A DNA stretch of 64,000 nt, from the NCBI GenBank assembly GCA_900155405.1, contig LT700188.1, positions 806,001-870,000 of the forward strand, given 5' to 3'. The position numbers and the translations under genes were made by a program. The notes below the pieces were generated by a model. That model worked only from the letters and a program-made list of their open reading frames with translations. It made no database searches and had not been told where the DNA came from. Below are positions 10,579-58,754 of this stretch, piece after piece (the first letter of the stretch is position 1; the number at the start of each line of letters is the position of its first letter). This stretch comes from Negativicoccus massiliensis (lineage in GTDB: Bacteria; Bacillota; Negativicutes; Veillonellales; Negativicoccaceae).

Positions 10579-11418
10579 TTACGGATGATGCCGCAACGCC
10601 GCGGTCACCGCCGCGTCCAGCATGAGCGCGGTCGTTACCGAACCGATACCGCCCGGAACCGGTGTCGCCGCCTGCGCTTTCGCCAGTGCTTCCGGCGCGA
10701 CATCACCGACGGTTTTGCCGTCGACGCGATGGATGCCCACATCGACGACAACCGCATCCTCACTCACCATGTCCGACGTCACCATCATCGCTTTGCCGAC
10801 CGCCGCGACCAAAATATCTGCCGCGCGCGTGAAGTGCGGCAAGTTCTGCGTTTTGGAGTGGCAAATGGTCACCGTCGCGTTCGCCGCCAGCAATAATTGC
10901 GCAACGGGTTTACCGATGACATCGCTGCGACCGATCACCACCGCGTGTTTACCGGCGAGCGGAATGTCATAATGCCGCAGCGTGGCGAGCACCGACCGCG
11001 CGGTCGCCGGCACAAATGCGGTGCGGCCCGTCACAAGCCGGCCTACTTGTGTCGGCGTCAAACCGTCGATATCTTTGCCCGGCGCAATCGCTTCGACCAA
11101 CGAACTGCGATCCAGTCCCGGCGGCAACGGCATTAAAAGTAAAATGCCGTCAATCTGCGGATTCTGATTCAGCGTGTGAATCGTCGCCAAAGCATCCTCT
11201 TGCGTCAGATTTTCCTCGGGCTCGACCCGTTCGACATATAATCCTGCTTGCGTTGCTGACTTCGCTAAAAAGTCGCCGTACATCTGCGCCGCACGATCCG
11301 CGCTGAAACTCACAATGGCCAGCCCCGGAGTAACGCCCTTCGCCGCCAGCATGCGAATTTTTTTCGCCGTGGTTTCCTGCTGCGCGGCCGCTACCGGCGC
11401 CCCCTTAAGTTCTCGCAT
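10579..11418 (-). CDS. folD: FolD-family methylenetetrahydrofolate dehydrogenase/cyclohydrolase, catalytic residues altered
   Basis: The 279-residue protein has the FolD fold: PGKDIDGLTP, VVIGRSDVIGKP for NADP binding, and PVPGGIGSVTTA near the end. By eye against E. coli FolD, Tyr50 is kept (Y47), but the catalytic Lys54 aligns with Leu51 and Gln98 with Leu95. The usual PCTP motif reads PATA. In characterised FolD enzymes the Lys is essential for the cyclohydrolase step and less so for the dehydrogenase, so this copy may be a dehydrogenase only, or have another role. It is last in the operon, 9 bp after fhs, whose product makes 10-formyl-tetrahydrofolate. Confidence 0.85.
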   Translation of the reverse strand: MRELKGAPVAAAQQETTAKKIRMLAAKGVTPGLAIVSFSADRAAQMYGDFLAKSATQAGLYVERVEPEENLTQEDALATIHTLNQNPQIDGILLLMPLPPGLDRSSLVEAIAPGKDIDGLTPTQVGRLVTGRTAFVPATARSVLATLRHYDIPLAGKHAVVIGRSDVIGKPVAQLLLAANATVTICHSKTQNLPHFTRAADILVAAVGKAMMVTSDMVSEDAVVVDVGIHRVDGKTVGDVAPEALAKAQAATPVPGGIGSVTTALMLDAAVTAALRHHP

Positions 11419-11427
11419 GAATCCTCC

Positions 11428-13098
11428 TCAAAAAAGACCGACAATGTTTCCGTCCGCCGTCACGTCGATTTGTTCCGCGGCCGGCTTTTTCGGTAATCCC
11501 GGCATCGTCATGATGTTGCCGGTAAGAGCGACGATAAAGCCTGCGCCGGCGCTGATTTTAAGTTCGCGTACGTGTAGCGTAAAGCCGCTGGGGCGGCCCA
11601 GTTTGTTCGGATCATCGGAGAACGAATACTGCGTCTTGGCGATGCAGACCGGCAACGCCGCATACCCGCCCGCTTCAATATCGGCCAGCGTTTTTTGCGC
11701 CGCCGCTTCTAAAACAATATCGTCCGCGCCGTAAATTTCCCTCGCAATGGTACGGATTTTGTCGGGAATACTCAATTCGCTCGCATACAGCGGCTGAAAA
11801 TCAGCGGTGCCCTTGGCAATTTCCGCCAGCACGGCTTGCGCAAGTTCTTTGCCGCCTTCTCCGCCCTTGGCAAAAACATCGGACAACGCGACGGGTACGC
11901 CGCGTTCTTCGCAGTATGTCCGAATCGCCGCCATTTCTTCTGCCGTGTCGCTGGCGAACGCATTGATGGCAACGACTGCGGGAACATTATATTTGGCAAT
12001 ATTTTCTAAATGTTTGCCGAGGTTTTCCAGGCCTTTCTTTAGCGCGGCGACATCCGGTTCGGTGAGTTCGTTTTTCGCGCGTCCGCCGTGCATTTTGAGC
12101 GCGCGCACCGTCGCGACCAATACCGCCACTTCCGGTTTTAACTTGCCGTAGCGGCATTTAATATCAAAGAATTTTTCCGCGCCCAGATCCGCGCCGAAAC
12201 CGGCTTCCGTAACGACGTAGTCCGCCAGGTGCAACGCGGTTTTTGTGGCCACCAGCGAATTGCAACCGTGCGCGATATTCGCAAACGGACCGCCGTGCAC
12301 CAGCGCCGGCACATGTTCAATCGTCTGCACCAGGTTGGGCGAGATCGCGTCTTTCATTAATGCCGTCATCGCCCCCTGCGCATGCAGGTCGCCGGCCGTT
12401 ACCGCGTTACCGTCGTAATCGTAGGCGACGATAATGCGGCTGAACCGTTCTTTCATATCTTTGAGATCCTGCGCGAGACACAAAATCGCCATGACTTCGG
12501 ACGCGACGGTAATATCAAAGCCGTCTTCGCGCGGCACGCCGTTCACTTTGCCGCCCAGACCCACCACGATGTGGCGCAATGCCCGATCATTCATATCGAC
12601 CACGCGTTTCCACACGATCCGACGCGGATCAATGCGCAGCGCATTGCCCTGTTGCAGGTGGTTATCAAGCATGGCCGCCAATAAATTGTGCGCCGCGGTA
12701 ATGGCGTGCATGTCGCCGGTAAAATGCAAGTTGATATCTTCCATCGGCACCACTTGCGAATAACCGCCGCCGGCGGCGCCGCCTTTGATTCCCATGCACG
12801 GCCCGAGTGACGGTTCACGCAACGCCACCATCACTTTTTTACCGAGCTTGGCAAGACCCTGCGCCAAACCGACCGTAGTAGTCGACTTTCCTTCACCGGC
12901 AGGAGTCGGAGAAATCGCCGTAACCAAAATCAAATGTCCATTTTGGGCGCCGTCCAACTTGCGAATTAAATCGTAGCCGATCTTCGCCTTATAGCGTCCG
13001 TACGGTGCTAAATATTTTTCGTCAATACCTGCCGCCGCGGCAATTTCCGTAATCGGTTGCAGCTTCGCCGCCTGGGCGATTTCAATATCGGTTTGCAT
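11428..13098 (-). CDS. fhs: Formate-tetrahydrofolate ligase
   Basis: The 556-residue enzyme is full length. It shows the nucleotide-binding loop TPAGEGKST at 65-73 and the substrate region [18 protein letters not shown]. It joins formate to tetrahydrofolate using ATP, giving 10-formyl-tetrahydrofolate for purines and other one-carbon needs. It lies 13 bp after the PBP gene and 9 bp before folD, so it appears to be co-transcribed with both. Nothing unusual was seen in the active-site regions. Confidence 0.96.
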
Positions 13099-22458: not shown

Positions 22459-22543
22459 TGGTGCGGTTGGAGAGACTCGAACTCTCACGGATTGCTCCAC
22501 TGCCGCCTGAAGACAGCGCGTCTGCCAGTTCCGCCACAACCGC
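22459..22543 (-). tRNA. tRNA-Leu (CAG)
   Basis: Acceptor GCGGTTG/CAACCGC, discriminator A and encoded CCA. The anticodon arm CTGTC-TTCAGGC-GGCAG places CAG at 34-36. The long variable arm is typical of leucine tRNA. It is last in the operon. Confidence 0.95.
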
Positions 22544-22559
22544 GTGGATAATATGTAGT

Positions 22560-22646
22560 TGGTGCGGCTGGTGAGACTTGAACTCACACGGAGTTACCTC
22601 CACTACCCCCTCAAGATAGCGCGTCTGCCTGTTCCGCCACAGCCGC
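22560..22646 (-). tRNA. tRNA-Leu (GAG)
   Basis: Acceptor GCGGCTG/CAGCCGC with encoded CCA; anticodon loop TTGAGGG gives GAG. Class II variable arm. Confidence 0.95.
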
Positions 22647-22660
22647 AAGCTGTGAAAAAA

Positions 22661-22736
<76 letters not shown>

Positions 22737-22747
22737 AAAAGAAAAAA

Positions 22748-22823
22748 TGGCGACCCGGATCGGATTTGAACCGACGATCTCCGCCGTGACAGGGCGGCAT
22801 GTTAACCACTACACCACCGGGCC
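22748..22823 (-). tRNA. tRNA-Asp (GTC)
   Basis: 76 nt with CCA; anticodon arm CCGCC-CTGTCAC-GGCGG gives GTC. Confidence 0.95.
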
Positions 22824-22828
22824 ATAGA

Positions 22829-22904
<76 letters not shown>

Positions 22905-22912
22905 ATATAAAA

Positions 22913-22987
22913 TGGTGACCCGTGGGGGATTCGAACCCCCGATACCGCCGTGAAAGGGCGGTGTCTTAACCACTTGACCAACGGGCC
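22913..22987 (-). tRNA. tRNA-Glu (TTC)
   Basis: 75 nt with CCA; anticodon arm CCGCC-CTTTCAC-GGCGG gives TTC. T stem GGGGG/CCCCC is perfect. Confidence 0.95.
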
Positions 22988-23022
22988 ATATATGAAATTG
23001 TTCCCCAAGGTTAAAACGAAGA

Positions 23023-23098
23023 TGGTGACCCGTGGGGGATTTGAACCCACCGATCCCGCCTTGAGAGGGCGGTGTCTTAACCACTTGACCAACGGGCC
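23023..23098 (-). tRNA. tRNA-Glu (CTC)
   Basis: Nearly a copy of the neighbouring tRNA-Glu(TTC), but the loop CTCTCAA gives CTC. It is one base longer in the variable loop and has a T-stem mismatch (GTGGG against CCCCC). Confidence 0.9.
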
Positions 23099-23108
23099 GG
23101 AAAAAAAG

Positions 23109-23184
23109 TGGTGATCCATCCGCGACTCGAACGCGGGACACCCTGATTAAAAGTCAGGTGCTCTACCGACTGAGCTAATGGATC
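23109..23184 (-). tRNA. tRNA-Lys (TTT)
   Basis: 76 nt with CCA; acceptor GATCCAT/ATGGATC; anticodon arm CCTGA-CTTTTAA-TCAGG gives TTT. Confidence 0.95.
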
Positions 23185-23187
23185 ACG

Positions 23188-23262
23188 TGGCAGGGGTGGA
23201 AGGATTCGAACCTGCGCATGGCGGAGTCAGAGTCCGCTGCCTTACCACTTGGCTACACCCCT
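23188..23262 (-). tRNA. tRNA-Gln (CTG)
   Basis: 75 nt with CCA; acceptor AGGGGTG/CACCCCT; anticodon arm GCGGA-CTCTGAC-TCCGC gives CTG. The T stem GCAGG/CCTTC holds one C-T mismatch. Confidence 0.92.
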
Positions 23263-23263
23263 A

Positions 23264-23339
23264 TGGCTCCCTGAGTAGGACTCGAACCTACGACCGATCG
23301 GTTAACAGCCGATTGCTCTACCAACTGAGCTATCAGGGA
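23264..23339 (-). tRNA. tRNA-Asn (GTT)
   Basis: 76 nt with CCA; acceptor TCCCTGA/TCAGGGA; anticodon loop CTGTTAA gives GTT. Confidence 0.95.
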
Positions 23340-23343
23340 ATAA

Positions 23344-23418
23344 TGGAGCGGGAAACGAGATTCGAACTCGCGACCCTCGCCTTGGCAAGGCGATGCTCTA
23401 CCACTGAGCTATTCCCGC
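23344..23418 (-). tRNA. tRNA-Gly (GCC)
   Basis: 75 nt with CCA; anticodon arm TCGCC-TTGCCAA-GGCGA gives GCC. First gene of the tRNA operon. Confidence 0.95.
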
Positions 23419-23583: not shown

Positions 23584-24357
23584 TCAAGGATTTTGGCCAA
23601 AAATGTAGGGCGCCGGCACTCGCCAACGCTTCACGGGCAGCAACTGACCGTAGTAGGCTCCCAATGTATTGGAAGCAGCAAGATCATACGTCCCCGCGCC
23701 GTAGCCGACCCGATCTATGACCAATTCGGACGGACGTTTTTCTACCGGTACGGCAAATGTCGCGAGCGCCGCCGCGCCGGTCGGCGTGGTAAGTTCATAG
23801 TCGGGCGTTCCGATAGTCGTCGGAAACCCCTGCAGCAAAAATCGCGTCGCGGGCGCGGGAATGGAAAGCTCGCCGTGCGCCGCGCGAATCGTACCCGAAC
23901 CGGTAGCCACCGGCCCCGCTAAGACAAGATCGATATTCAAATATTCCAAACCGAGCGCAATCGACGCGCAGTCGATGATGCAATCCACCGCGCCGACTTC
24001 ATGAAAATGCACGTCCTCGGGCGCGATCCCGTGGGCCTTACTTTCCGCCAACGCCAACGACCAGAAAACGGATGCCGCGCGTTGTTTCGCACTCCCCGGC
24101 CAATCGGCGCGCGCCAAAATGGTTAAAATATCCGGTAAATGGCGATGCGTGGTCGTTTCCTTCACGTCTACGTTAAAGTACGTTGCCGTAATGCCGCGCT
24201 TGTTCAACGTTTCAAAAATCAGTGCGTAGTCGTCAAGTCCGAGTTTTTGCAACTCATTGGTCAGCCAAATTTGCGGCACACCCAAATCAAGCAGCGCGCC
24301 GACAAACATATTACCGCTGATGCCACTCACGGGATCCAAGTACAATACCTGTTCCAT
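23584..24357 (-). CDS. larC: LarC N-terminal-half protein (nickel-pincer cofactor family)
   Basis: The 257-residue protein begins LYLDPVSGISGNMFVGALLD, the LarC/DUF111 start. It has the histidine-rich stretch TTTHRHL and the VHFHEVGAVDCIIDCAS motif. In Lactobacillus plantarum LarC is made from two overlapping frames (larC1 and larC2) joined by a programmed frameshift, and LarC inserts nickel into the lactate-racemase cofactor. Here only the first half exists, because a terminator follows the stop. No larA, larB or larE is nearby. Its ATG overlaps the upstream stop (TGATG), so it belongs with the CobT-like pair. A different metal or cofactor task is possible. Confidence 0.8.
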   Translation of the reverse strand: MEQVLYLDPVSGISGNMFVGALLDLGVPQIWLTNELQKLGLDDYALIFETLNKRGITATYFNVDVKETTTHRHLPDILTILARADWPGSAKQRAASVFWSLALAESKAHGIAPEDVHFHEVGAVDCIIDCASIALGLEYLNIDLVLAGPVATGSGTIRAAHGELSIPAPATRFLLQGFPTTIGTPDYELTTPTGAAALATFAVPVEKRPSELVIDRVGYGAGTYDLAASNTLGAYYGQLLPVKRWRVPAPYIFGQNP

Positions 24358-25403
24358 CAGAGCACTTCCTTTCGCTGCCTTCCTTTACCCGGGCCGTCTT
24401 CCGCCACCGTCACGCCGGCGGCGCCAAACGTCCGCATCTCATTCAACATGTCAAGCGATGCGTCGAGCAGGGACAATCCCAACGTCGATCCGAGTCCCTG
24501 CGCCAACGTGAAATCATAATGCAACGCTGCCGGTAGCCCCAATTTTTGCAATTGCAATTGGTGCAAGGGATCGGGATACGCCGCCGATGCGAACAAGTAA
24601 TCTTTGACCCGCGGTGCGATCACTGCCGCCGCCACGGCCGCCGCGCCGGTGACGCTGTTGTCAAATACGATCGCCATATGGCGCGCGGCCGCGCCTAAAA
24701 TAAGTCCCGTGAGCATCGCAATCGACGCGTTTCCGTAGCGTGCGAGCACCGTTTCCGGTTCCGTTTGCGCCAACGTCCACGCCTCGCTTTGCGCGGTAAA
24801 GCCCTGCGCCTGCATCGCTTCGAAAAGTTCCGGCCCTAAAAAAGCCGTCGTCACGGCAAGCGCCGCAAGCGCGCCGCGCGCGCCGATTTCACCGAGCGCC
24901 AATGCTTCGACACCGCTATGCGCCAATTCACCCGCCAACGCGCCGCCGAAGGCAATCGCTTCCGCGCACGCCTCCTGCGTCAGCGCGGCTCCCTTGGGCG
25001 AGAACTGACTGCCGTTTTGCATTTTATGCAGCATCACGCCCGCGACATGTTCGGTGTCCTGTTCCAAGCCGACATCCGCCACATACACCGGCGCCTGCAG
25101 TTCGCGCGCCAGCGCCGAAACGGGCGCTGATCCGCCGGCAATAAGCATCAGTTCCGCCAGACTCTGTTGCCCGTGATCCTGATTATCCGGACTGTCGACC
25201 GCAGTATCCGCGGCGGCAATGACAATCGCTTTTTGCAGACGCGCCGGTTTTTTACGGCAGGTAATTCCGGCGATTCGGATCGCCGTTTCTTCCAGTTGCG
25301 CCAATGATCCCAACGGTTTGGAAAGGTTGTCGACGTACTCGCGACATTGCTCCATCACTGAGGCGTCGAGCGGCGCGATTTGATCATTCCATGCTTCCAA
25401 CAT
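24357..25403 (-). CDS. CobT-family phosphoribosyltransferase paralogue lacking the catalytic Glu (ArsB-like)
   Basis: The 348-residue protein is a divergent relative of CobT, which attaches ribose phosphate to the lower base of cobamides. The usual GEMGIGNTT motif reads GEIGARGAL, and the catalytic Glu of the C-terminal LGEGTGA motif aligns with Gln302 in LAQGLGS. It overlaps a canonical CobT gene upstream by 20 bp. This matches the ArsA/ArsB heterodimer of Sporomusa ovata, which activates phenol and p-cresol and in which only one subunit has an active site. I infer that this is the non-catalytic partner. A degenerate duplicate without function is the alternative. Confidence 0.75.
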   Translation of the reverse strand: MLEAWNDQIAPLDASVMEQCREYVDNLSKPLGSLAQLEETAIRIAGITCRKKPARLQKAIVIAAADTAVDSPDNQDHGQQSLAELMLIAGGSAPVSALARELQAPVYVADVGLEQDTEHVAGVMLHKMQNGSQFSPKGAALTQEACAEAIAFGGALAGELAHSGVEALALGEIGARGALAALAVTTAFLGPELFEAMQAQGFTAQSEAWTLAQTEPETVLARYGNASIAMLTGLILGAAARHMAIVFDNSVTGAAAVAAAVIAPRVKDYLFASAAYPDPLHQLQLQKLGLPAALHYDFTLAQGLGSTLGLSLLDASLDMLNEMRTFGAAGVTVAEDGPGKGRQRKEVL

Positions 25404-46034: not shown

Positions 46035-46762
46035 TGTGCACCTCCGTCATCGGTATAATGGGAAACGTCCCGCCCGTCGCGATACATGCTTGCTAAAAAT
46101 TTTTGCGGCTCGCCGTTATAAACGACGCGACCGTCGGCGAGCATCACGACGCGTTGCGCGTATCGTTGTACCACATCGGGCGCGTGCGTGACCAAAATAA
46201 TTCCCAATCCCGCGGCCGTCAATTTCGTTAAAATCTGCATCAGCTGGCGGATATCCGCCGGCGAAATGCCGCTCGTCGGTTCATCAAGGATGAGAATTTC
46301 CGCGCCGAGCGCCACCGCCGAAGCCAATGCGACGCGTTGCTTTTTCGCCCGCGAAAGAAGCGGCGGGTACGCGTCCCGTTTTTCTTCCAGTCCGCATAAT
46401 TTCAGCGCCGCCTCCGCTTTCTCGCGGATCTGCGCCTTGTCTCGTCCCTGCTCGAGCGGGCCGAATGCGATTTCATCGTACACCGTGGTGCAAAAAAGTT
46501 GTCGATCCGCTTGTTGAAATACGTACCCCAAAAAACGACTGCGTTCACTCGCGGATAATCTCGTCAGTTCCAGACCGTTCAGCTTGATGCGTCCGGAGGT
46601 CGGTCGTTCCAGTCCCATCAAAAGTCGCGTCAATGTCGTTTTACCGCTGCCGTTTTTGCCGACCAAAGCGGTGATTTCACCGGCCGCAAAAGCCAGCGAA
46701 AGATCATGAATCACTTCGCGACCGTCGGCGTACGCAAAACATAAATGCTCCGTTTTCAGCAT
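46031..46762 (-). CDS. ECF transporter ATPase with degenerate signature motif
   Basis: The 243-residue ABC ATPase has a good Walker A (GKNGSGKTT, 35-43), Walker B with Glu (ILILDE, 156-161) and switch His193. The ABC signature LSGGQ is replaced by LSRAK (136-140), and the D-loop reads SGIS in place of SALD. It pairs with the ATPase half of the S-A fusion protein, which has an intact signature. It overlaps that gene by seven bases. Confidence 0.88.
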   Translation of the reverse strand: MLKTEHLCFAYADGREVIHDLSLAFAAGEITALVGKNGSGKTTLTRLLMGLERPTSGRIKLNGLELTRLSASERSRFLGYVFQQADRQLFCTTVYDEIAFGPLEQGRDKAQIREKAEAALKLCGLEEKRDAYPPLLSRAKKQRVALASAVALGAEILILDEPTSGISPADIRQLMQILTKLTAAGLGIILVTHAPDVVQRYAQRVVMLADGRVVYNGEPQKFLASMYRDGRDVSHYTDDGGAQ

Positions 46763-48153
46763 GTGGCCCTCCCCGCGACGAACGCCGATGCCGTCGCTTC
46801 CTGATACCGATCGGGCAACAAATCACGGAATGTAGCGTCCGCCTGCATGCGGCCGACCACTTCATCGAACGCGCCCACCATGACCAAACGTCCTTCGTCC
46901 AACAGCGCGGCGCGCTTGGCGTACAGCGCGACTTCCGCCAACTGCGACTCGGTAACGACAACGGTCAGACCATCGCGCCGATTCAGCGTGCCGAGCAATT
47001 CGTAAAACGCTTGCGTGCCTTCCGGATCGAGCGCCGAGGTCGGCTCATCGATGACCAATATTCGCGGCTCCGTCGCGAGCACCGACGCGATGACCAAGCG
47101 CTGACGCTGACCGCCGGAAAGCGTCGACACATTACGTTCCTCCAAACCGCTCAACCCGACTTTCGCCAACGCCTCCGCGCTGCGGCGCGCAATTTCCGCG
47201 GCAGCGTAACCGCGATTTTCCAACGCGAATTCCATTTCTTCGGCGACGGTCAACGTCACCAACTGCGCATCGTAATCCGGTAAAATCGTGCCGACTTTAG
47301 TCGCGATCTCCGCGATGCTGTGCTGCGTAATCGCCAGATCTTCCACAAAAACCATGCCGCGCATAACGCCGCCGTAGTAATGCGGAACCGCTCCGCAGAG
47401 CGCGGACATCAGCGTCGTTTTACCGGCCCCCGCCGCGCCCGCCAACACCAGAAAGTCGCCGCGTTCGACCGTCAGATTAATATCTTGCAACGCGTCCGTT
47501 GTCGCCTGCGGATACCGATAACTCAAATGTTCGATGGAAAACGGCGCATCCTGTTGCGGCCGTAAAGTAAGTCCCGTGTGCGACACGGTGGCGACTTCCG
47601 CTTGCGCCGTCAGCGAAGCATGCAGCAGCCGTTGCGCCGGCGCGTACAGAACCGGCGTGATAACGCCGTTAATGACCGCGACCAAACCGACCGCCGGGAG
47701 CATCGCATACAAATATACATTGGTCGCAATCCCGAGCATGTATGTCATCAGCGATACAAAAACGAAACCGCTGATCAATGTGGCGACGCCGCCGCAGACC
47801 GCGCTCAGGATGCTTTTTTGCCGGACGTGCGGCAAAATCATGTGCGCGAAACACGCGGCCGTCATCGCGCCCAACGGTTCGCTGATCAGATTGCCGTAGG
47901 GAAAGCCCGATTTCGAGGTCAAAATTTCGATGCAGGCCGCCACCATGCCGATGCCGAAACATTGGCGATACGTGGGTTTCGTCAGTAAAATCGCCACGCA
48001 ATACGTCGCGATCATCCAATTCGGCGTAAACCCCGCGATGGAGGGGGACGCGATATGTAAAATCGTCCCGATGGAAAGCAACAAAGTCGAAACGGTCAAC
48101 CAGCGAAATTGCCCGCCGCGTGTTTTTTGAAATACCAATGTTTGTGTTTGCAT
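46756..48153 (-). CDS. Fused ECF S component and ATPase, probably for tryptophan
   Basis: The 465-residue protein joins a six-segment S domain (about 15-180, with SKSGFPYGNLISEPLGAMTA) to an ABC ATPase (205-465). The ATPase has Walker A GAAGAGKTT, signature LSGGQ (345-349), Walker B VIDE and D-loop SALD. The switch His is missing (TES at 401-403). S-A fusions are uncommon; usually the S protein is separate. The gene follows a T-box leader whose specifier is most likely UGG, so the cargo is inferred to be tryptophan or a precursor. The start at 48153 follows GGAAAGGAG. Confidence 0.85.
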   Translation of the reverse strand: MQTQTLVFQKTRGGQFRWLTVSTLLLSIGTILHIASPSIAGFTPNWMIATYCVAILLTKPTYRQCFGIGMVAACIEILTSKSGFPYGNLISEPLGAMTAACFAHMILPHVRQKSILSAVCGGVATLISGFVFVSLMTYMLGIATNVYLYAMLPAVGLVAVINGVITPVLYAPAQRLLHASLTAQAEVATVSHTGLTLRPQQDAPFSIEHLSYRYPQATTDALQDINLTVERGDFLVLAGAAGAGKTTLMSALCGAVPHYYGGVMRGMVFVEDLAITQHSIAEIATKVGTILPDYDAQLVTLTVAEEMEFALENRGYAAAEIARRSAEALAKVGLSGLEERNVSTLSGGQRQRLVIASVLATEPRILVIDEPTSALDPEGTQAFYELLGTLNRRDGLTVVVTESQLAEVALYAKRAALLDEGRLVMVGAFDEVVGRMQADATFRDLLPDRYQEATASAFVAGRATC

Positions 48154-48180
48154 GTTATCTCCTTTCCGATGCGGACAATA

Positions 48181-48475
48181 AAAAAGCCTCCCGTCCACAT
48201 CCATATCCAAATGATATGGGGACGAAAGGTATCCTTCCGCGGTGCCACCCCGCTTGACTGTCATCAGTCCGGCTTACTACGTACGGCGATTTGCGATACG
48301 CGCTTCGGGATAGCGGCCGAAGATGCCGTCGACGCCTACCCCGCGCAGCGGATCGGGTCGTATCTCCCGGGCCCATTCGCGTCGTCCTCCCGCGCCGATC
48401 TTCCACTGTCACCGGCTCGCTTTGGCGTTTGTTACGACGGTACTCTTCCCGTTCATCGATGATTTCATTTAATTA
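48181..48475 (-). promoter_or_regulatory. T-box riboswitch, probable tryptophan specifier
   Basis: On the minus strand the T-box GGTGGCACCGCGG lies at 48249-48237. Stem I pairs CGTCGT with ACGACG and CGGG with CCCG. Its internal loop has AGTA on one side (48444-48441) and GAATGGG on the other. After the conserved GAA the triplet is TGG (48375-48373), a tryptophan codon; reading ATG (Met) one base earlier is the alternative. A terminator (CGTCC/GGACG stem and CTTTTTT) ends the leader at about 48181-48230. Uncharged tRNA should release transcription of the ECF operon. Confidence 0.88.
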
Positions 48476-48480
48476 CAGGT

Positions 48481-48509
48481 AGAATAGCACAAAAAAATAG
48501 CAGTGTCAA
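48481..48509 (-). promoter_or_regulatory. Promoter of the T-box/ECF operon
   Basis: -35 TTGACA (48504-48509), -10 TATTCT (48481-48486), spacer 17 bases. Confidence 0.8.
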
Positions 48510-48582
48510 TTTTTCTCCAAAATATTTTTAACGCGCATCATGACTCTCATAACGAATCCGCGTGGGCGCGGTTTCCCGATGT

Positions 48583-48588
48583 TATAAT
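48583..48588 (+). promoter_or_regulatory. -10 box of the symporter gene
   Basis: TATAAT, 39 bp before the GTG start; no clear -35 box. Confidence 0.45.
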
Positions 48589-48626
48589 AAAAAAGAATGG
48601 ATTGTCTGTGGTATATAGGAGGCAAT

Positions 48627-48664
48627 GTGAGCTCATTTACCCTGTGGCATTGGGGCGGAATTTT
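48627..48664 (+). pseudogene. 5' fragment of the sodium:solute symporter gene
   Basis: AGGAGG lies four bases before a GTG that opens 12-13 codons (SSFTLWHWGGIL). This looks like the natural start of the symporter whose body resumes at 48911. The frame runs straight into adapter sequence at 48665, so the break is in the assembly and not necessarily in the organism. Confidence 0.65.
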
Positions 48665-48740
48665 AGATCGGAAGAGCGTCGTGTAGGGAAAGAGTGTAGA
48701 TCTCGGTGGTCGCCGTATCATTAAAAAAAAAAAAAAAAAA
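48665..48740 (+). other. Illumina universal adapter plus poly-A (sequencing artefact)
   Basis: 48665-48722 equals the complete reverse complement of the 58-nt TruSeq universal adapter, starting AGATCGGAAGAGCGTCGTGT. Eighteen A follow (48723-48740), as seen when reads run past the adapter. It is not genomic DNA. Confidence 0.98.
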
Positions 48741-48910
48741 TAGAGCTGTTCAACTGATAATTTGATTAAAACGTCAACTAAGTCTCTCCAAGAAAACATG
48801 ATTCTATAGTGGAACTGTATACTACATCAAAACTCAAAAGAAATCAGAAACAAAACTGCGAAATAGAAGTATTGCTTGTCACTAGGTATTATTGAATACG
48901 TCATCGAATT
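48741..48910. other. AT-rich segment of unknown origin
   Basis: This 170-bp stretch is clearly AT-richer than the rest of the window, has no coding frame continuing the symporter and joins the poly-A tract. A 12-base sequence GTATTGCTTGTC near its right end (48869-48880) is repeated exactly where the symporter resumes (48911-48922). It is probably a chimeric or contaminating read fragment. Confidence 0.7.
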
Positions 48911-50146
48911 GTATTGCTTGTCGGCACGATCGTCGGCGGCTCGGCCACCGTCGGTACCGCCCAAGGCGCCGTGAGCGCCGGTTTTTCCGCTTGGTGGTTT
49001 ACTTTCGGCTCAACGCTCGGCTTTATTTTGTTGGGCAAAGTGTACGCCGGGCCGTTGCGCGCAAGCGGCTTAAAAACCATCGCCGAGTATATGGCGGCGC
49101 GCTACGGCAAAATGGCGGGCGTAGCGACTTCCATCGTGTCCGTCTTGGGTATTTTCTTTTCGCTCGTCGCGAGCGGCTTGGCCGGCATTCATTTCATGCA
49201 AATTTTATTTCCCGTCTCGGAACTGACGGGCACTGTATTGCTGCTCGTCATTGTCGTGTTGTACGTTTTGGCCGGCGGCATTCGCGGTACGGCGGTGTCC
49301 GGCATCGTCAAAACGGTGTTGCTCTACGCCACGCTGATCATCGCGGGCGTTTACGCCTGGCGCGGCTTGGCGCAACTTCCCGCGGCCACGGTATGGCACG
49401 CCGACTGGCTTTGGCCGCAAGGGAGCAGCGGCTGGCGCATGTTCGCCACGAACTGTCTTTCCGTCATTATCGGCGTGGCTGTGACGCAATCGTATGCGCA
49501 GGCGCTGTACAGCGCGCGTGACGCCGAAACCGCGGCGCGCGGCAGTTACTTGGCGGCCGCGCTTTGCATGCCGGTCGGTTTGCCGCTGATTTTAATCGGC
49601 ATTCATACGCACTTTATGACGCCGTCGATCGACGCCGTCACCGCCTTGCCGATGTTTATGCGGATGCACTTGCCCGCGCTTTTGGCGGGGCTGGGAATCG
49701 GCGCGATTTTACTTTCCATCATCGGCTCGATCGCCGGACTGTCGTTGGGTGCCGCCACCTCGATCGCCGTCGATATCTTCGAGTCGGGTTTCGGCGTAAA
49801 GGGACAAAAGCGGCTGCTTTTCATTTTGCAAGCGGCGCTGATTATGCTTGTGCTCGCCGCCTTCGCGGTTTCGTTATACCGCTACCACTCCCAGATTCTC
49901 TACTGGAATTTCCTTTCCTTTTCGCTGCGCGGCGCGGGCGTTTTCTTACCTTTTCTACTCGCCATTTACGCCAAAGGACCGACCTCTGAAAAAAGCACGA
50001 CGGCGAATATTCTTTTCTCCACTTCGATCGCCGTGCTTTCCATCGGCAACGATACCTTCACGCTCAATCCTCTCTATGTGGGCATCGGCACGTCTGCCTG
50101 CTGGCTGCTTGTGGAAACCATTTGGCGGCGCATTGATCGTCATTAA
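48911..50146 (+). CDS. Sodium:solute symporter family protein, N-terminus lost to artefact
   Basis: About 411 residues of an SSS-family transporter are present, beginning inside the second membrane segment (LLVGTIVGGSATVGTAQGA). Later motifs include the sodium-site region around SIIGSIAGLSLGAATSIAVD. SSS proteins have roughly 50-60 residues before this point, so about 45 are missing apart from the 5' fragment at 48627. A TTG at 48914 is not a credible start. The substrate is unknown. The true gene is probably intact in the organism. Confidence 0.85.
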   Translation, partial: VLLVGTIVGGSATVGTAQGAVSAGFSAWWFTFGSTLGFILLGKVYAGPLRASGLKTIAEYMAARYGKMAGVATSIVSVLGIFFSLVASGLAGIHFMQILFPVSELTGTVLLLVIVVLYVLAGGIRGTAVSGIVKTVLLYATLIIAGVYAWRGLAQLPAATVWHADWLWPQGSSGWRMFATNCLSVIIGVAVTQSYAQALYSARDAETAARGSYLAAALCMPVGLPLILIGIHTHFMTPSIDAVTALPMFMRMHLPALLAGLGIGAILLSIIGSIAGLSLGAATSIAVDIFESGFGVKGQKRLLFILQAALIMLVLAAFAVSLYRYHSQILYWNFLSFSLRGAGVFLPFLLAIYAKGPTSEKSTTANILFSTSIAVLSIGNDTFTLNPLYVGIGTSACWLLVETIWRRIDRH

Positions 50147-50791: not shown

Positions 50792-50822
50792 AAAAGTCCT
50801 CGCCAAGCGAGGACTTTTTTTA
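50787..50822. terminator. Bidirectional terminator
   Basis: AAGTCCTCGC/GCGAGGACTT stem with A and T tails between converging genes. Confidence 0.85.
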
Positions 50823-51548
50823 TTTGTGTAAACCGTAGCGAATAATCAATCGGCTGATTTCGTATAAAAGCAAAATGGGAATGGCCAGCAGCGTTTGCGA
50901 AACCAGGTCGGTCGTCGGTGTAATAATCGCCGCCGCGATAAACGCCAGCAAGATGACAAAGCGGCGTTGCGCTTTGAGCCATGCGGACGACACCACATCC
51001 ATTTCGGCAAGCGCCAAAAGAACCAGCGGCAAATTAAACACGAACCCGAACGGCAGGATCAGCATCAACGCGAAATCCAAATAACTTTCCATGGAGATCA
51101 GCGGTTGCACCGTGCTGTCGCCGAAGGAAAGAAAAAAGTGCAGCCCCTGCGGCAAGACAACGAAAAAGCCGAACGCCGTTCCCGCTAAAAAAAGCAGCAG
51201 CGAACCGGGCACCAACAGCGCCAGAATCGCGTGTTCTTTTTGCGTAAACGCCGGCACCAAAAACGCCCAGAATTCATAAAACAACACCGGCGCGGCAAAG
51301 ACAATACCCGCCACCATCGCCACTTTAACATAAATAAAAAATGCTTCCGCCGGTCGCAGATAATACAGCTGGCCCGCAGGCGCCGTGATGAACGCCACAA
51401 TGAAATCGATGAAACAGCCGCTCACCGCCATGCCGACCACGGCCGCCAGAATGGCGCGGATCAGCCTCCGTCGCAACTCCCCGAGATGATCGATCAGCGT
51501 CATCTCCCGCGGATCGGCGAAGCAGGCCGCGGAGGTCGCGCTTTTCAT
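50820..51548 (-). CDS. tatC: Twin-arginine translocase subunit TatC
   Basis: The 242-residue protein has six membrane segments and the TatC start [18 protein letters not shown]. The conserved segment [18 protein letters not shown] and the acidic residue region in [16 protein letters not shown] are present. It is the receptor for Tat signal peptides. Its ATG overlaps the tatA stop by four bases. Confidence 0.95.
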
Positions 51549-53519: not shown

Positions 53520-54908
53520 TTGACTACATTAAAATTTTTCAGTTGGCTGAAACAACCGCGCAATACCATTTGGTGGCAACCCGCCAAAGGCGCACTGTTT
53601 GTTATCCTATATGTCATCGCGGTACTCGTCAGCACGCGTTATCTTCCAACCAACCTGTTCCCGGATATTCCGTCGCGCACGATCGATGGTCTGTTGACCA
53701 TTTTGGCGTCGAGCATGCTGGCGGTCACTACTTTTTCTCTTTCCATTATGGAGAATGCGTTTTCTTCCGCGTCACGCGGTGCGACCCCGCGTTCCGTCGA
53801 ACTCGTCATGGCGGACGACAGCACCCGACTCGCCATCGCCAGTTTCATTTCGACATTTATTTATGCCATTATCACAAAGATCGCCTTGGGAAGCGGTTCC
53901 TTCGCGCAAAACGGCCGCTTCCTCTTTTTCCTCAGCACGATTGTCGTCATCGCCTACCTGATTGTTGTACTGATCCGCTGGGTGCAGGTACTATCGACAC
54001 TCGGACACTTGGGCGACACGATGGATAAGGTATATGCCAAAGCGGCAGAGACCATGCGCCGTTATCGCAGCCTCCCCAAACTCGGCGCCAGATGGGTGCC
54101 GACCAAAGACGCGCTGCCGGATGCGCATTTCATTTGCGCCGAGACGGGTCAGTTCGCGCTGATTCATTTGGACCTTTTACAGGAGTGGGCGGAAAAACAT
54201 GACGTGCATGTTTTCATTCGCTTACATCCGGGTGACTTTCTGTATCGCGGCGAACCGCTGGCGGATATTTACCAAAATGACGGTTCGGACTCGTTGACGG
54301 AAGAAGATCTGTCGCTTTTACGCAGTTTCTTTGTCGTTAAGCCAACGCGCAGTTATGAACAAGATCCTCGTTTCGGTTTTATCGTCTTAAAAGAAATCGC
54401 GCAACGCTCGATTTCCCCCTCGATGAACGATCCCGGTTCGGTGATAGCGGTGATGAATCTGATGGCGAAATTGTTGCTGGACGCTACCGCGCCGCGCGAC
54501 AACATGACCGTCTACGATCGCATCGGCATGCAACCTCTGCAGGAAACGGATTTCATCTATCGTTCCTTTGACGGCATCATTCGCGACAGCGACCAAAATG
54601 CAGGTATATCCATGCAGGCGTTGCACATTATGTATGCGGTTTCGCGCCATGCGCCCGAGGAAACGATTCGCAAAGCGGCGCGTATTCAGGCGCGCTTGAT
54701 TTTGGAACACGCACGCCGAGCATTCAGCACCCGTCAGGATTTGTTTCGCGTGGAAAGCGCCTATGTCCAATATTTTCCGGATGATACGCCGATCGAAGCC
54801 TCCGCGTATTTTCCCGATGACGAAGCGGCGGAACGTCAACAATCATTGGCGGATGCCGACCTGACGGCTCTCTTTGAAGAGCTGCGTGACGAAAACGATC
54901 GACAGTAA
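53520..54908 (+). CDS. DUF2254 membrane protein
   Basis: The 462-residue protein fits DUF2254. Four N-terminal membrane segments (to about residue 150) include the family region TTFSLSIMENAFSSASRGATP. A cytoplasmic domain follows with EWAEKHDVHVFIRLHPGDF and ISPSMNDPGSVIAVMN. The function of the family is unknown. The start is TTG after a weak AAGGCGG site. An extended -10 box (TGGTATAAT, ending 53458) lies about 60 bp upstream. The next gene starts 20 bp after its stop. Confidence 0.82.
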   Translation: MTTLKFFSWLKQPRNTIWWQPAKGALFVILYVIAVLVSTRYLPTNLFPDIPSRTIDGLLTILASSMLAVTTFSLSIMENAFSSASRGATPRSVELVMADDSTRLAIASFISTFIYAIITKIALGSGSFAQNGRFLFFLSTIVVIAYLIVVLIRWVQVLSTLGHLGDTMDKVYAKAAETMRRYRSLPKLGARWVPTKDALPDAHFICAETGQFALIHLDLLQEWAEKHDVHVFIRLHPGDFLYRGEPLADIYQNDGSDSLTEEDLSLLRSFFVVKPTRSYEQDPRFGFIVLKEIAQRSISPSMNDPGSVIAVMNLMAKLLLDATAPRDNMTVYDRIGMQPLQETDFIYRSFDGIIRDSDQNAGISMQALHIMYAVSRHAPEETIRKAARIQARLILEHARRAFSTRQDLFRVESAYVQYFPDDTPIEASAYFPDDEAAERQQSLADADLTALFEELRDENDRQ

Positions 54909-54928
54909 AATAAAACAAAGGAAATGAT

Positions 54929-56581
54929 ATGAACCGAACTTCTTCTCACTTGCATTGGTGGCGTCGCTACGGCGGATGGTTGCTGCTTGGCGCCGCGTTT
55001 ATCTACATGTTCGCTCTGAACAACTGGACGCCCTGGCACCGCGATGATTATGAGTACGCGCTGATTTGGCAAACGCTGGTGCCGATCGAAAGTTTTCATG
55101 ACGTCATGACGTCTCTCGCGCGTCACTACCAAATGCACGGCGGACGCATGGTCGCTTTTTTTGTGTTGGATAATTTTTTGCGCTGGCCCAAGATTTGGTT
55201 CAATATCGCTAACGCGCTTTGCTTCATTTTGATGGCGCTCGGTCTCAGCTGGCACAGCGCGGGACGTATTGAAAAATTCCCCGTGCCGGTGCGCATCGCC
55301 GCCGTACTGCTCGCGCTTTGGTATACGCTGCCGCACTTCGGTGAGGTGGCGGTGTGGATGTGCGGCTCGACCGTATATTTGTGGACGATGACCATCATGG
55401 TCTGGTTTCTTTTACCGTACCATTTTTCTCTGCGCCCGACACGAACACTTGCCGACAGTTATTGGGCGGCAGGCGCTATGTTTTTACTCGGCATTCTCGC
55501 CGGTTGGGGCGAAGAAAATGCTTCGCTCGCGACCATCGTCGCGGCGACCGCGGTGACGCTGTACAGTTGGCATAAAGGTCAACGGTACCGCTGGCAGATC
55601 GCAGGTGTCGTCGGGAGCGTACTCGGTTTCATCGCGCTGGTCGCCGCGCCCGGTAATTTTGTCCGCGTGGCGGAGGTGTCCGCTTCCATCGGTCGAAGGA
55701 TCGGCAATCAGTTCGCGGGAAACGGCGAGATGATGCTCTATATTTTGCCGCTGATTTTCATGTGGATGTTAGCCTATCGACAAATCGCGATATCGCGTTA
55801 CGGACACGACGCGACAGCGCCATCCGGATCGAAACGTCCGCTGTATATCGCCGGCGCCCTCGCGGCGGTACTCGCGGTGTCATATGCCACCGACGGTTTT
55901 GTCGGGCGTTGGTTTGGCGACGGCTTAATCGCAATCGTTCACGCGCTCGGTTTGCTCAAGCCGAAAACGGTACGCCTCCTGCAAAACATCGGCTCCGGTG
56001 TCGAAGAGATGGGTCTTTACCTCTTGCTCATCTGGCTCGTATATCGCCTTTTGCGCCGCCGCCTCATGCTCACGCCCGCGGTAACGAAAACCGCCGGCTG
56101 GCGGCTGACATTCCGCACGCTTTGGAATCAATATCCCCCCGTGCGCTTTTTACTGATTACCGCAGCGCTTGCCGCCATCAGCAATCTCGCGATGCTCGGC
56201 GCGCCGACGTTTCCCGCTCGCGCATCGATGTTCGCCGTGTTGTGTCTGATTGCCGGCACGATCGGTTTGTATGACGTGCCCGTGATTCGGCGCGCCTTCG
56301 CGCGGGAACAACGTTTTATTGTCGGTATTGTTTTGTTGATTACGCTGCCGTTTTTGCTCGGCACATTGTATTTTACCGTGAGAATTTACGAAATCGATCA
56401 GGCGCGCATGGCCTATATCCGCGACGCGCGGGCGCAAGGCTATACCGCCGTCGAACTCGAGCCGCTTCCCTTTACGCAGCGCATGCTGCGCCATATCTTC
56501 TACGTGGAACTCGATAACGGCGTCTCCCAATACGGTTTGAAGCGCTACTACGGTTTGGAGGAGTTGACGATCCGCAAATAA
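54929..56581 (+). CDS. Polytopic membrane protein, DUF6056/GT-C-like
   Basis: The 550-residue protein has about twelve membrane segments. After the first segment comes WHRDDYEYALIW, an acidic DD motif in a first outer loop as in GT-C glycosyltransferases and DUF6056 proteins. Further on is a conserved WGEEN. It could transfer a lipid-linked sugar on the outer face of the membrane (inference). It follows the DUF2254 gene by 20 bp, with AAGGAAATGAT ahead of the ATG. Confidence 0.65.
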   Translation: MNRTSSHLHWWRRYGGWLLLGAAFIYMFALNNWTPWHRDDYEYALIWQTLVPIESFHDVMTSLARHYQMHGGRMVAFFVLDNFLRWPKIWFNIANALCFILMALGLSWHSAGRIEKFPVPVRIAAVLLALWYTLPHFGEVAVWMCGSTVYLWTMTIMVWFLLPYHFSLRPTRTLADSYWAAGAMFLLGILAGWGEENASLATIVAATAVTLYSWHKGQRYRWQIAGVVGSVLGFIALVAAPGNFVRVAEVSASIGRRIGNQFAGNGEMMLYILPLIFMWMLAYRQIAISRYGHDATAPSGSKRPLYIAGALAAVLAVSYATDGFVGRWFGDGLIAIVHALGLLKPKTVRLLQNIGSGVEEMGLYLLLIWLVYRLLRRRLMLTPAVTKTAGWRLTFRTLWNQYPPVRFLLITAALAAISNLAMLGAPTFPARASMFAVLCLIAGTIGLYDVPVIRRAFAREQRFIVGIVLLITLPFLLGTLYFTVRIYEIDQARMAYIRDARAQGYTAVELEPLPFTQRMLRHIFYVELDNGVSQYGLKRYYGLEELTIRK

Positions 56582-56641
56582 AAAGAAAAGCAACATGCTA
56601 TAATGGAAAAAAATGATCTTTATTTCGAAAGGAGTGGTCAC

Positions 56642-57862
56642 ATGTTCCCTACATTTCGTAAATATACCGCAGCGGTCCTTGCCGCTTGTTTCTTAACGAT
56701 GCCGCTGGCAGTACCGGTGGAAGCCTCGTGGGGCGGTATCGGCGCCTCCGTACTTAAAGGCGCGGTAGAAATGGGCATGATTCGCGAACAGTTGCGCGAA
56801 CTTGACGAAAACGGCCAGGAAGAAGTGCTCGCCAACGCCAAAGAGCAAAGCGGTTACTATGATAATGCCGCCTATCAGGAACGCGCCAAACGCATTTTGG
56901 ATTCCCTTGTGAAAAGCGGCGTGCCCAAGCGGAAGTATGTCATTTTTGTGAACCCTTCCGATGATATCAACGCGTATTGTACGCTCGCCGGCGTGCTTTC
57001 CGTCAACAAAGGCACATTGGACGTGCTGGACGATCAACAGCTGGCGTTTGTCCTCGCCCATGAAGTCAGTCACGGCGAAAATCGCGACATCGTCAACGGC
57101 GTAACCAAAAAGCTCAGCCTTGCCGTCGCCGGCTCCGCCGTTCTTTCCGGTGGCGACGCGTCCGCCGCGCAAACGCTGCTGATGAATTTGGGCCTGAACT
57201 ATATCAACAACGAAGTATTCACGATGGGTCAGGAAAAAGCGGCGGATGAACTCGGCTTCACGATCCTGGAGCACACCGATTACAATCTCGGCGGCGCTCC
57301 GGCCGCGATGCACGCCTTATTGAAAAAGTACGGTCCCGGTTTCAATGACGGTATCGCGCGCGTTATTGCGCCGAACTCGCATCCGCGTAACGAATCGCGT
57401 GTCACGGAAGCGGTCAACCGCATGCAGGCGTATTCCGGCAACCGCGTCACCGTCAAAGGCGCCGATGTGATCGTCAACGACAAGACCGTATTGACACCGA
57501 TCAACGTCGGAAATTATGATGCCGAAACGCGCGCTTACTACGTTTCGGGTCGTCTGGCTCGTCTCTTCCATGATCATAAAATGCAACCGTCGCGATTAAG
57601 CGGCGGCGCGATTTACGTGGGCAACCAATCGTTGTACACCCTTTCCTCCACGGAAGACGGCCAAGCGATCGTCAATCGCTTGAACGCCGCCCTTACCCCC
57701 GAAGCGAAAGTCAAAGAAGAAAAAATTGACAAAACATCCAATGAAATGAAAAAGCCGGACGCAACCAAACCGGCGCAAGACGTCAAAAAGGCCGCGCCGA
57801 AAAAGAATTCGGAAGGCAACATTAAAGATCGCGTCAACGCGATTCTCGGCCGCAAAAACTGA
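56642..57862 (+). CDS. Exported M48-family zinc metalloprotease
   Basis: The 406-residue protein has a signal peptide (cleavage near VEA-SW, about residue 28) and an M48 domain with the zinc motif HEVSH at 140-144. A downstream EKAADELGF provides the third ligand. The C-terminal 60 residues are Lys/Pro-rich and end in a short basic helix. Exported M48 proteases in diderms are often linked to outer-membrane quality control (BepA-like); that is inference. AAGGAG lies seven bases before the ATG. Confidence 0.88.
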   Translation: MFPTFRKYTAAVLAACFLTMPLAVPVEASWGGIGASVLKGAVEMGMIREQLRELDENGQEEVLANAKEQSGYYDNAAYQERAKRILDSLVKSGVPKRKYVIFVNPSDDINAYCTLAGVLSVNKGTLDVLDDQQLAFVLAHEVSHGENRDIVNGVTKKLSLAVAGSAVLSGGDASAAQTLLMNLGLNYINNEVFTMGQEKAADELGFTILEHTDYNLGGAPAAMHALLKKYGPGFNDGIARVIAPNSHPRNESRVTEAVNRMQAYSGNRVTVKGADVIVNDKTVLTPINVGNYDAETRAYYVSGRLARLFHDHKMQPSRLSGGAIYVGNQSLYTLSSTEDGQAIVNRLNAALTPEAKVKEEKIDKTSNEMKKPDATKPAQDVKKAAPKKNSEGNIKDRVNAILGRKN

Positions 57863-57866
57863 TCAC

Positions 57867-57897
57867 AAAAAAGCGCTTACCGTGGTAAGCGCTTTTT
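57867..57897. terminator. Bidirectional terminator
   Basis: AAGCGCTTACC/GGTAAGCGCTT stem with A and T tails between converging genes. Confidence 0.85.
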
Positions 57898-57905
57898 GCT
57901 TGCTC

Positions 57906-58754
57906 TCATTCGTCTTCCGTCCATTTTTTTACCGTCGCCTGCAACGCGCCGCGAAGAACCAAGCTGTTGCCTGCGTTACTTTTCTGCGCTTGCGTTTCGC
58001 GCAGTGCGAATTCAATAAATCGCGCCGCTGTCTTCACCGAGTCCGCGAGCAATTCACCGCGCAGCAACGCCGCGAGCAGTACCGCGTTGAAATAATCGCC
58101 GCTGCCGCTGAAATTCGGCGCCAGGCGCGCAAAATCGACAGCGCCCGTGTGACCGTCCGCCGACCGATAATAAATAGTTCCGACGTTCGCGTCAGGATTT
58201 CCCACGCCTGTGATTACGCAGGCTCGCGTCCCCAACGCGCATAAGCGTTCGAGCCATTGCGGCGCGACGCGTTGCTCACACGCGGGATCTTCCCCCAAAA
58301 GCAACGCCGCTTCCGTCCAGTTCGGCGTAATGATATCCGCCACCGGCAAAAGAGTGCGCATTTCCGTGACGAGTTCCTGCGGCAATGTAGGATATAAGGC
58401 GCCGTTATCCCCCATCACGGGATCCACCAGAATAAACGAACCTTGCGCGCGCCATTTCGGTAATGCTTCTCGCAGCAACGCAAATTGTTCCAAACTGCCG
58501 AGGCTGTCGATAAAACCGGTCGCCACCGCGGCAAACGTGAAGCCCTGTTTGTCCCACAGCGGCAAGGTCCGCCGCAGATGCTCCGTCAGCGGAAAATAGT
58601 CATAATCCCCGTACTCGAAACTGTGGCTCATCACCGCTGTCAACAATCCCGACACGGGATAACCGAGCGCGCGCAAAATCGGCTCCAGCACATTCATATT
58701 CGATGTGCCGTGCTCGATATAGTCATTAATTAAAAGAACGGGCCATGGCGTCAT
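57906..58754 (-). CDS. Pyridoxal/pyridoxamine kinase (PdxK/PdxY family)
   Basis: The 282-residue ribokinase-fold enzyme has LVDPVMGDNGALYPTLP, DIITPNWTEAALLLGE and the anion-hole motif FSGSGDYFNAVLLAALL with catalytic Asp (usual form GTGD). It phosphorylates vitamin B6 forms. Its start overlaps the YfbR-like gene's stop by four bases (ATGA). It is the last gene of a six-gene operon. Confidence 0.85.
   Translation of the reverse strand: MTPWPVLLINDYIEHGTSNMNVLEPILRALGYPVSGLLTAVMSHSFEYGDYDYFPLTEHLRRTLPLWDKQGFTFAAVATGFIDSLGSLEQFALLREALPKWRAQGSFILVDPVMGDNGALYPTLPQELVTEMRTLLPVADIITPNWTEAALLLGEDPACEQRVAPQWLERLCALGTRACVITGVGNPDANVGTIYYRSADGHTGAVDFARLAPNFSGSGDYFNAVLLAALLRGELLADSVKTAARFIEFALRETQAQKSNAGNSLVLRGALQATVKKWTEDE

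Follow-up and report, generated by a model that had tools for sequence, protein, structure and literature searches.

Illumina TruSeq adapter sequence with a probable read-through tail inside a sodium:solute symporter gene of a single-contig Negativicoccus massiliensis assembly

Runs of A are typical of the base calls made by Illumina instruments beyond the end of an adapter. Exact scans were made with the 58-nt oligonucleotide of the Illumina TruSeq universal adapter, and at least 120 stretches carrying it were detected in genome contigs and 57 in viral contigs. In 182 adapter copies from other loci, many of them non-independent samples of a single study, the adapter is mostly followed by 10–14 A and then by a unique sequence that could not be placed and is often A-rich. 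The copies are nearly always positioned at a contig end, and at least 200 bases extend beyond the adapter in only 6 of the 182. Of the 398 phylum genomes sampled, one besides the present genome carries the adapter (its first 32 bases), likewise at a contig end. The identity of the oligonucleotide is supported by six papers in which the 38-nt 3' part of the adapter appears together with the name TruSeq Universal Adapter, and the adapter followed by AAAAAA is listed as one sequence to be trimmed (PMC9958793).

The window, which is the whole 64,000-nucleotide stretch of contig LT700188.1 analyzed here, contains a single copy of the reverse complement of this adapter at 48665–48722. The initial annotation had described this segment as the full 58-nt reverse complement of the TruSeq universal adapter, and the identity is 58/58 with no mismatch. 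An exact match of 58 bases cannot be the product of chance. The reverse complement of the segment is AATGATACGGCGACCACCGAGATCTACACTCTTTCCCTACACGACGCTCTTCCGATCT. The 18 A reported to follow the adapter are present directly on its 3' side at 48723–48740, and they form the sole A run of at least 15 in the 1,360,589-base single-contig genome. Within the genome, the first 13 bases of the adapter occur at this site alone. No other TruSeq-type adapter start or long A run was found in the 1.36-Mb genome, and this adapter is apparently the sole one that it holds. The features of the locus are collected in Table 1.

Table 1. Features at the interrupted symporter gene, in window coordinates
Feature	Position	Strand	Basis
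Authentic symporter 5' end (12 codons + 2 bases, opening with GTG)	48627..48664	+	Aligns with G001 to 48664
TruSeq universal adapter, reverse complement (58 nt, exact)	48665..48722	+	Sequence match; papers naming the oligonucleotide
18-A run	48723..48740	+	Same order in public contigs; adapter followed by AAAAAA trimmed in PMC9958793
Tail of 175 bases, 31% GC, most likely read-through noise	48741..48915	+	No open frame; no match in the collections searched
Remainder of the symporter gene, SSF (PF00474)	48916..50146	+	Homology to G001 restarts at 48916; Pfam E = 2.2e-23

A genome of the same genus (G001), the nearest relative among the genomes compared, was used as the reference. The alignment of the window with G001 stops at the base before the adapter and restarts at 48916, so that both edges of the foreign insert are directly visible. 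The insert spans 251 bases and stands in place of 111 (37 codons) in G001, a net change in length of +140 bases. The artefact had originally been placed at 48665–48740; the left edge, the adapter and the A run stand as described, but the extent does not, since the foreign sequence continues to 48915 and measures 251 bases instead of 76. Likewise, the alignment replaces the proposed beginning of the gene body at 48911 with 48916 and the estimate of about 45 missing codons with 37. Nowhere else in the aligned part of the window (approximately 58 kb, from about 4.9 to 63.4 kb) do foreign bases replace genome sequence relative to G001. Two other structural differences were detected in this part, and both consist of extra DNA in G001.

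An exact oligonucleotide (58/58), a poly-A run after the adapter (18 A) and the absence of both from the same gene in G001 together mark a read-through artefact. The segment 48665–48915 is, with a probability of approximately 95%, a technical artefact in which an untrimmed read-through formed a ragged contig end that was fused to the next contig. The earlier statement that the assembly is wrong here is supported by the exact adapter, by the intact gene in G001, by homology that stops at the adapter and by the contig-end anatomy of the copies found elsewhere.

The adapter had also been proposed to interrupt a sodium:solute symporter gene starting at 48627. The orthologue in G001 is intact, and the same GTG opens an ORF of 459 aa. 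The truncated ORF of the window matches the Pfam family SSF (PF00474) with 83.2 bits against a gathering cut-off of 22.8, and the proposal is upheld by these two results. None of the NCBIfam cut-offs was reached by the symporter scores, including those of the intact orthologue. No stop codon occurs within the match of any relative to the symporter gene. The open frame is incomplete in this assembly, where the start and the remainder of the gene stand in different frames and the 37 codons are absent. The net gain of 140 bases shifts the frame, and stops then arise in the frame of the GTG. The broken frame is attributed to the assembly error, and the symporter gene is probably intact in the strain itself. 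The split gene should not be taken as evidence of a pseudogene.

The missing 111 bases were sought elsewhere in the same genome as a possible misplacement, and only chance matches were obtained. Their absence is expected for a misassembly and equally for a deletion, and it would thus agree with a genuine indel or mobile-element insertion in the symporter gene of this strain, with the adapter lying on a real breakpoint. Such an event is nevertheless very improbable. The homology breaks exactly at the first base of the adapter, which would not happen in a natural event, the tail contains no mobile-element genes, and the right flank retains 95% identity to G001 with the frame open through to the stop.

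Searches with the 175-base tail in the rest of the same genome, in 397 further genomes from the phylum, in 20,395 E. coli records and in phages and plasmids gave no match. Among the matches listed for the phage and plasmid searches, only the adapter and the A run are covered, and never the tail. An open frame is present in 0 of the 6 frames, whereas 90% of the 175-base stretches of the window do have one. These results argue against the tail being real DNA of another organism that was joined to the adapter artefact as a chimeric or cross-contaminating fragment. This origin would account for a GC content of 31% versus 54% for the window, and for a composition that is not plainly A- or C-rich, unlike that of many noise tails in adapter copies elsewhere. 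Tails of mixed composition are common among the other adapter copies too, however, and a foreign source is unlikely. The tail is most likely read-through noise.

A 12-base direct repeat, GTATTGCTTGTC, occurs in the tail at 48869–48880 and across the right junction at 48911–48922. The last seven bases of the second copy are common to G001 and are therefore genuine genome sequence. The repeat is rarer than expected by chance (39 of 20,000 shuffles), and the artefact account offers no explanation for it. Elsewhere in the window, the segment 51740–51970 is an AT-rich intergenic stretch (about 33% GC) that is collinear with G001 and is therefore natural, unlike the tail of the adapter.

The artefact is most simply accounted for by the following sequence of events. 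One or more untrimmed Illumina reads from a short genomic insert would have passed through the TruSeq universal adapter and then off the template. Past the template end, 18 A would have been called, followed by noise calls, and the read-through read would have become a ragged contig end. During genome closure, finishing or gap closing, this noisy end would have been joined to the contig beginning at 48916, and the symporter gene would thereby have lost about 111 bases (37 codons). The presence of noise in the consensus would be accounted for by a gap closer working from single reads, which is assumed here. Alternatively, a single adapter-dimer read could make up the whole insert, because its 251 bases exactly fit the MiSeq read length (251 cycles). 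An adapter-dimer read, however, would contain no genomic bases by which it could be placed through overlap, and the length is matched equally well by a read of 301 cycles from a 50-base insert. That the chromosome truly carries the adapter and the tail, for example through laboratory cloning or the uptake of library DNA, is scarcely credible, and nothing points in that direction.

The reading frames over the adapter had been described as translating to familiar artefact peptides, and RSEERRVGKECRSRWSPYH on the plus strand and LMIRRPPRSTLFPYTTLFRS on the minus strand are indeed present. Neither peptide was found in a search of the literature. The two "adapter peptides" are not new proteins, and the ORFs that run over the adapter (48503–48724 on the plus strand and 48506–48799 on the minus strand) should be kept out of protein databases. 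The insert is an ordinary assembly or database error and not biology; it is a matter for curation only, and the record needs masking. A genome that is estimated to be 99.96% complete in one contig may still hold such a join.

Several neighboring features were also observed. A T-box leader (RF00230, 96.8 bits) is located at 48215–48465 on the minus strand, upstream of a minus-strand protein (46756–48264 as listed) whose single chain carries both an ECF-type ATPase domain and a TrpP-like domain. Because this ORF as listed runs into the T-box leader, its true start is probably the ATG near 48155. The sequence suggests that an ECF-like transporter may be controlled by an amino acid, perhaps tryptophan, through the T-box leader. 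The first region of extra DNA in G001 (approximately 1.9 kb; G001:C3:84926–86869, L217 about 10927–12870) corresponds to 50814–50824 of the window. It directly follows the terminator of an ECF S-component gene, contains two ORFs of 192 and 329 aa, the former presumably LemA-like, and appears as a strain-variable cassette adjoining the terminator. The second region, of several kb (G001:C3 about 53758–58590), corresponds to about 24341–24642 of the window and adjoins a tRNA cluster (22459–23418). Approximately 300 bases of the window match both edges of this second region, a pattern resembling that of an indel bounded by repeats.

With the SSF family (PF00474), the locus has in common the Pfam match and the intact 459-aa orthologue in G001. 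It differs from members of the family in that 37 codons are gone, the two parts stand in different frames and the score is below every NCBIfam cut-off. With TruSeq read-through contamination in public assemblies, it has in common the exact adapter, the poly-A run and the unplaceable sequence. The public cases nearly always lie at contig ends, whereas the present one lies inside a single-contig genome and within a gene.
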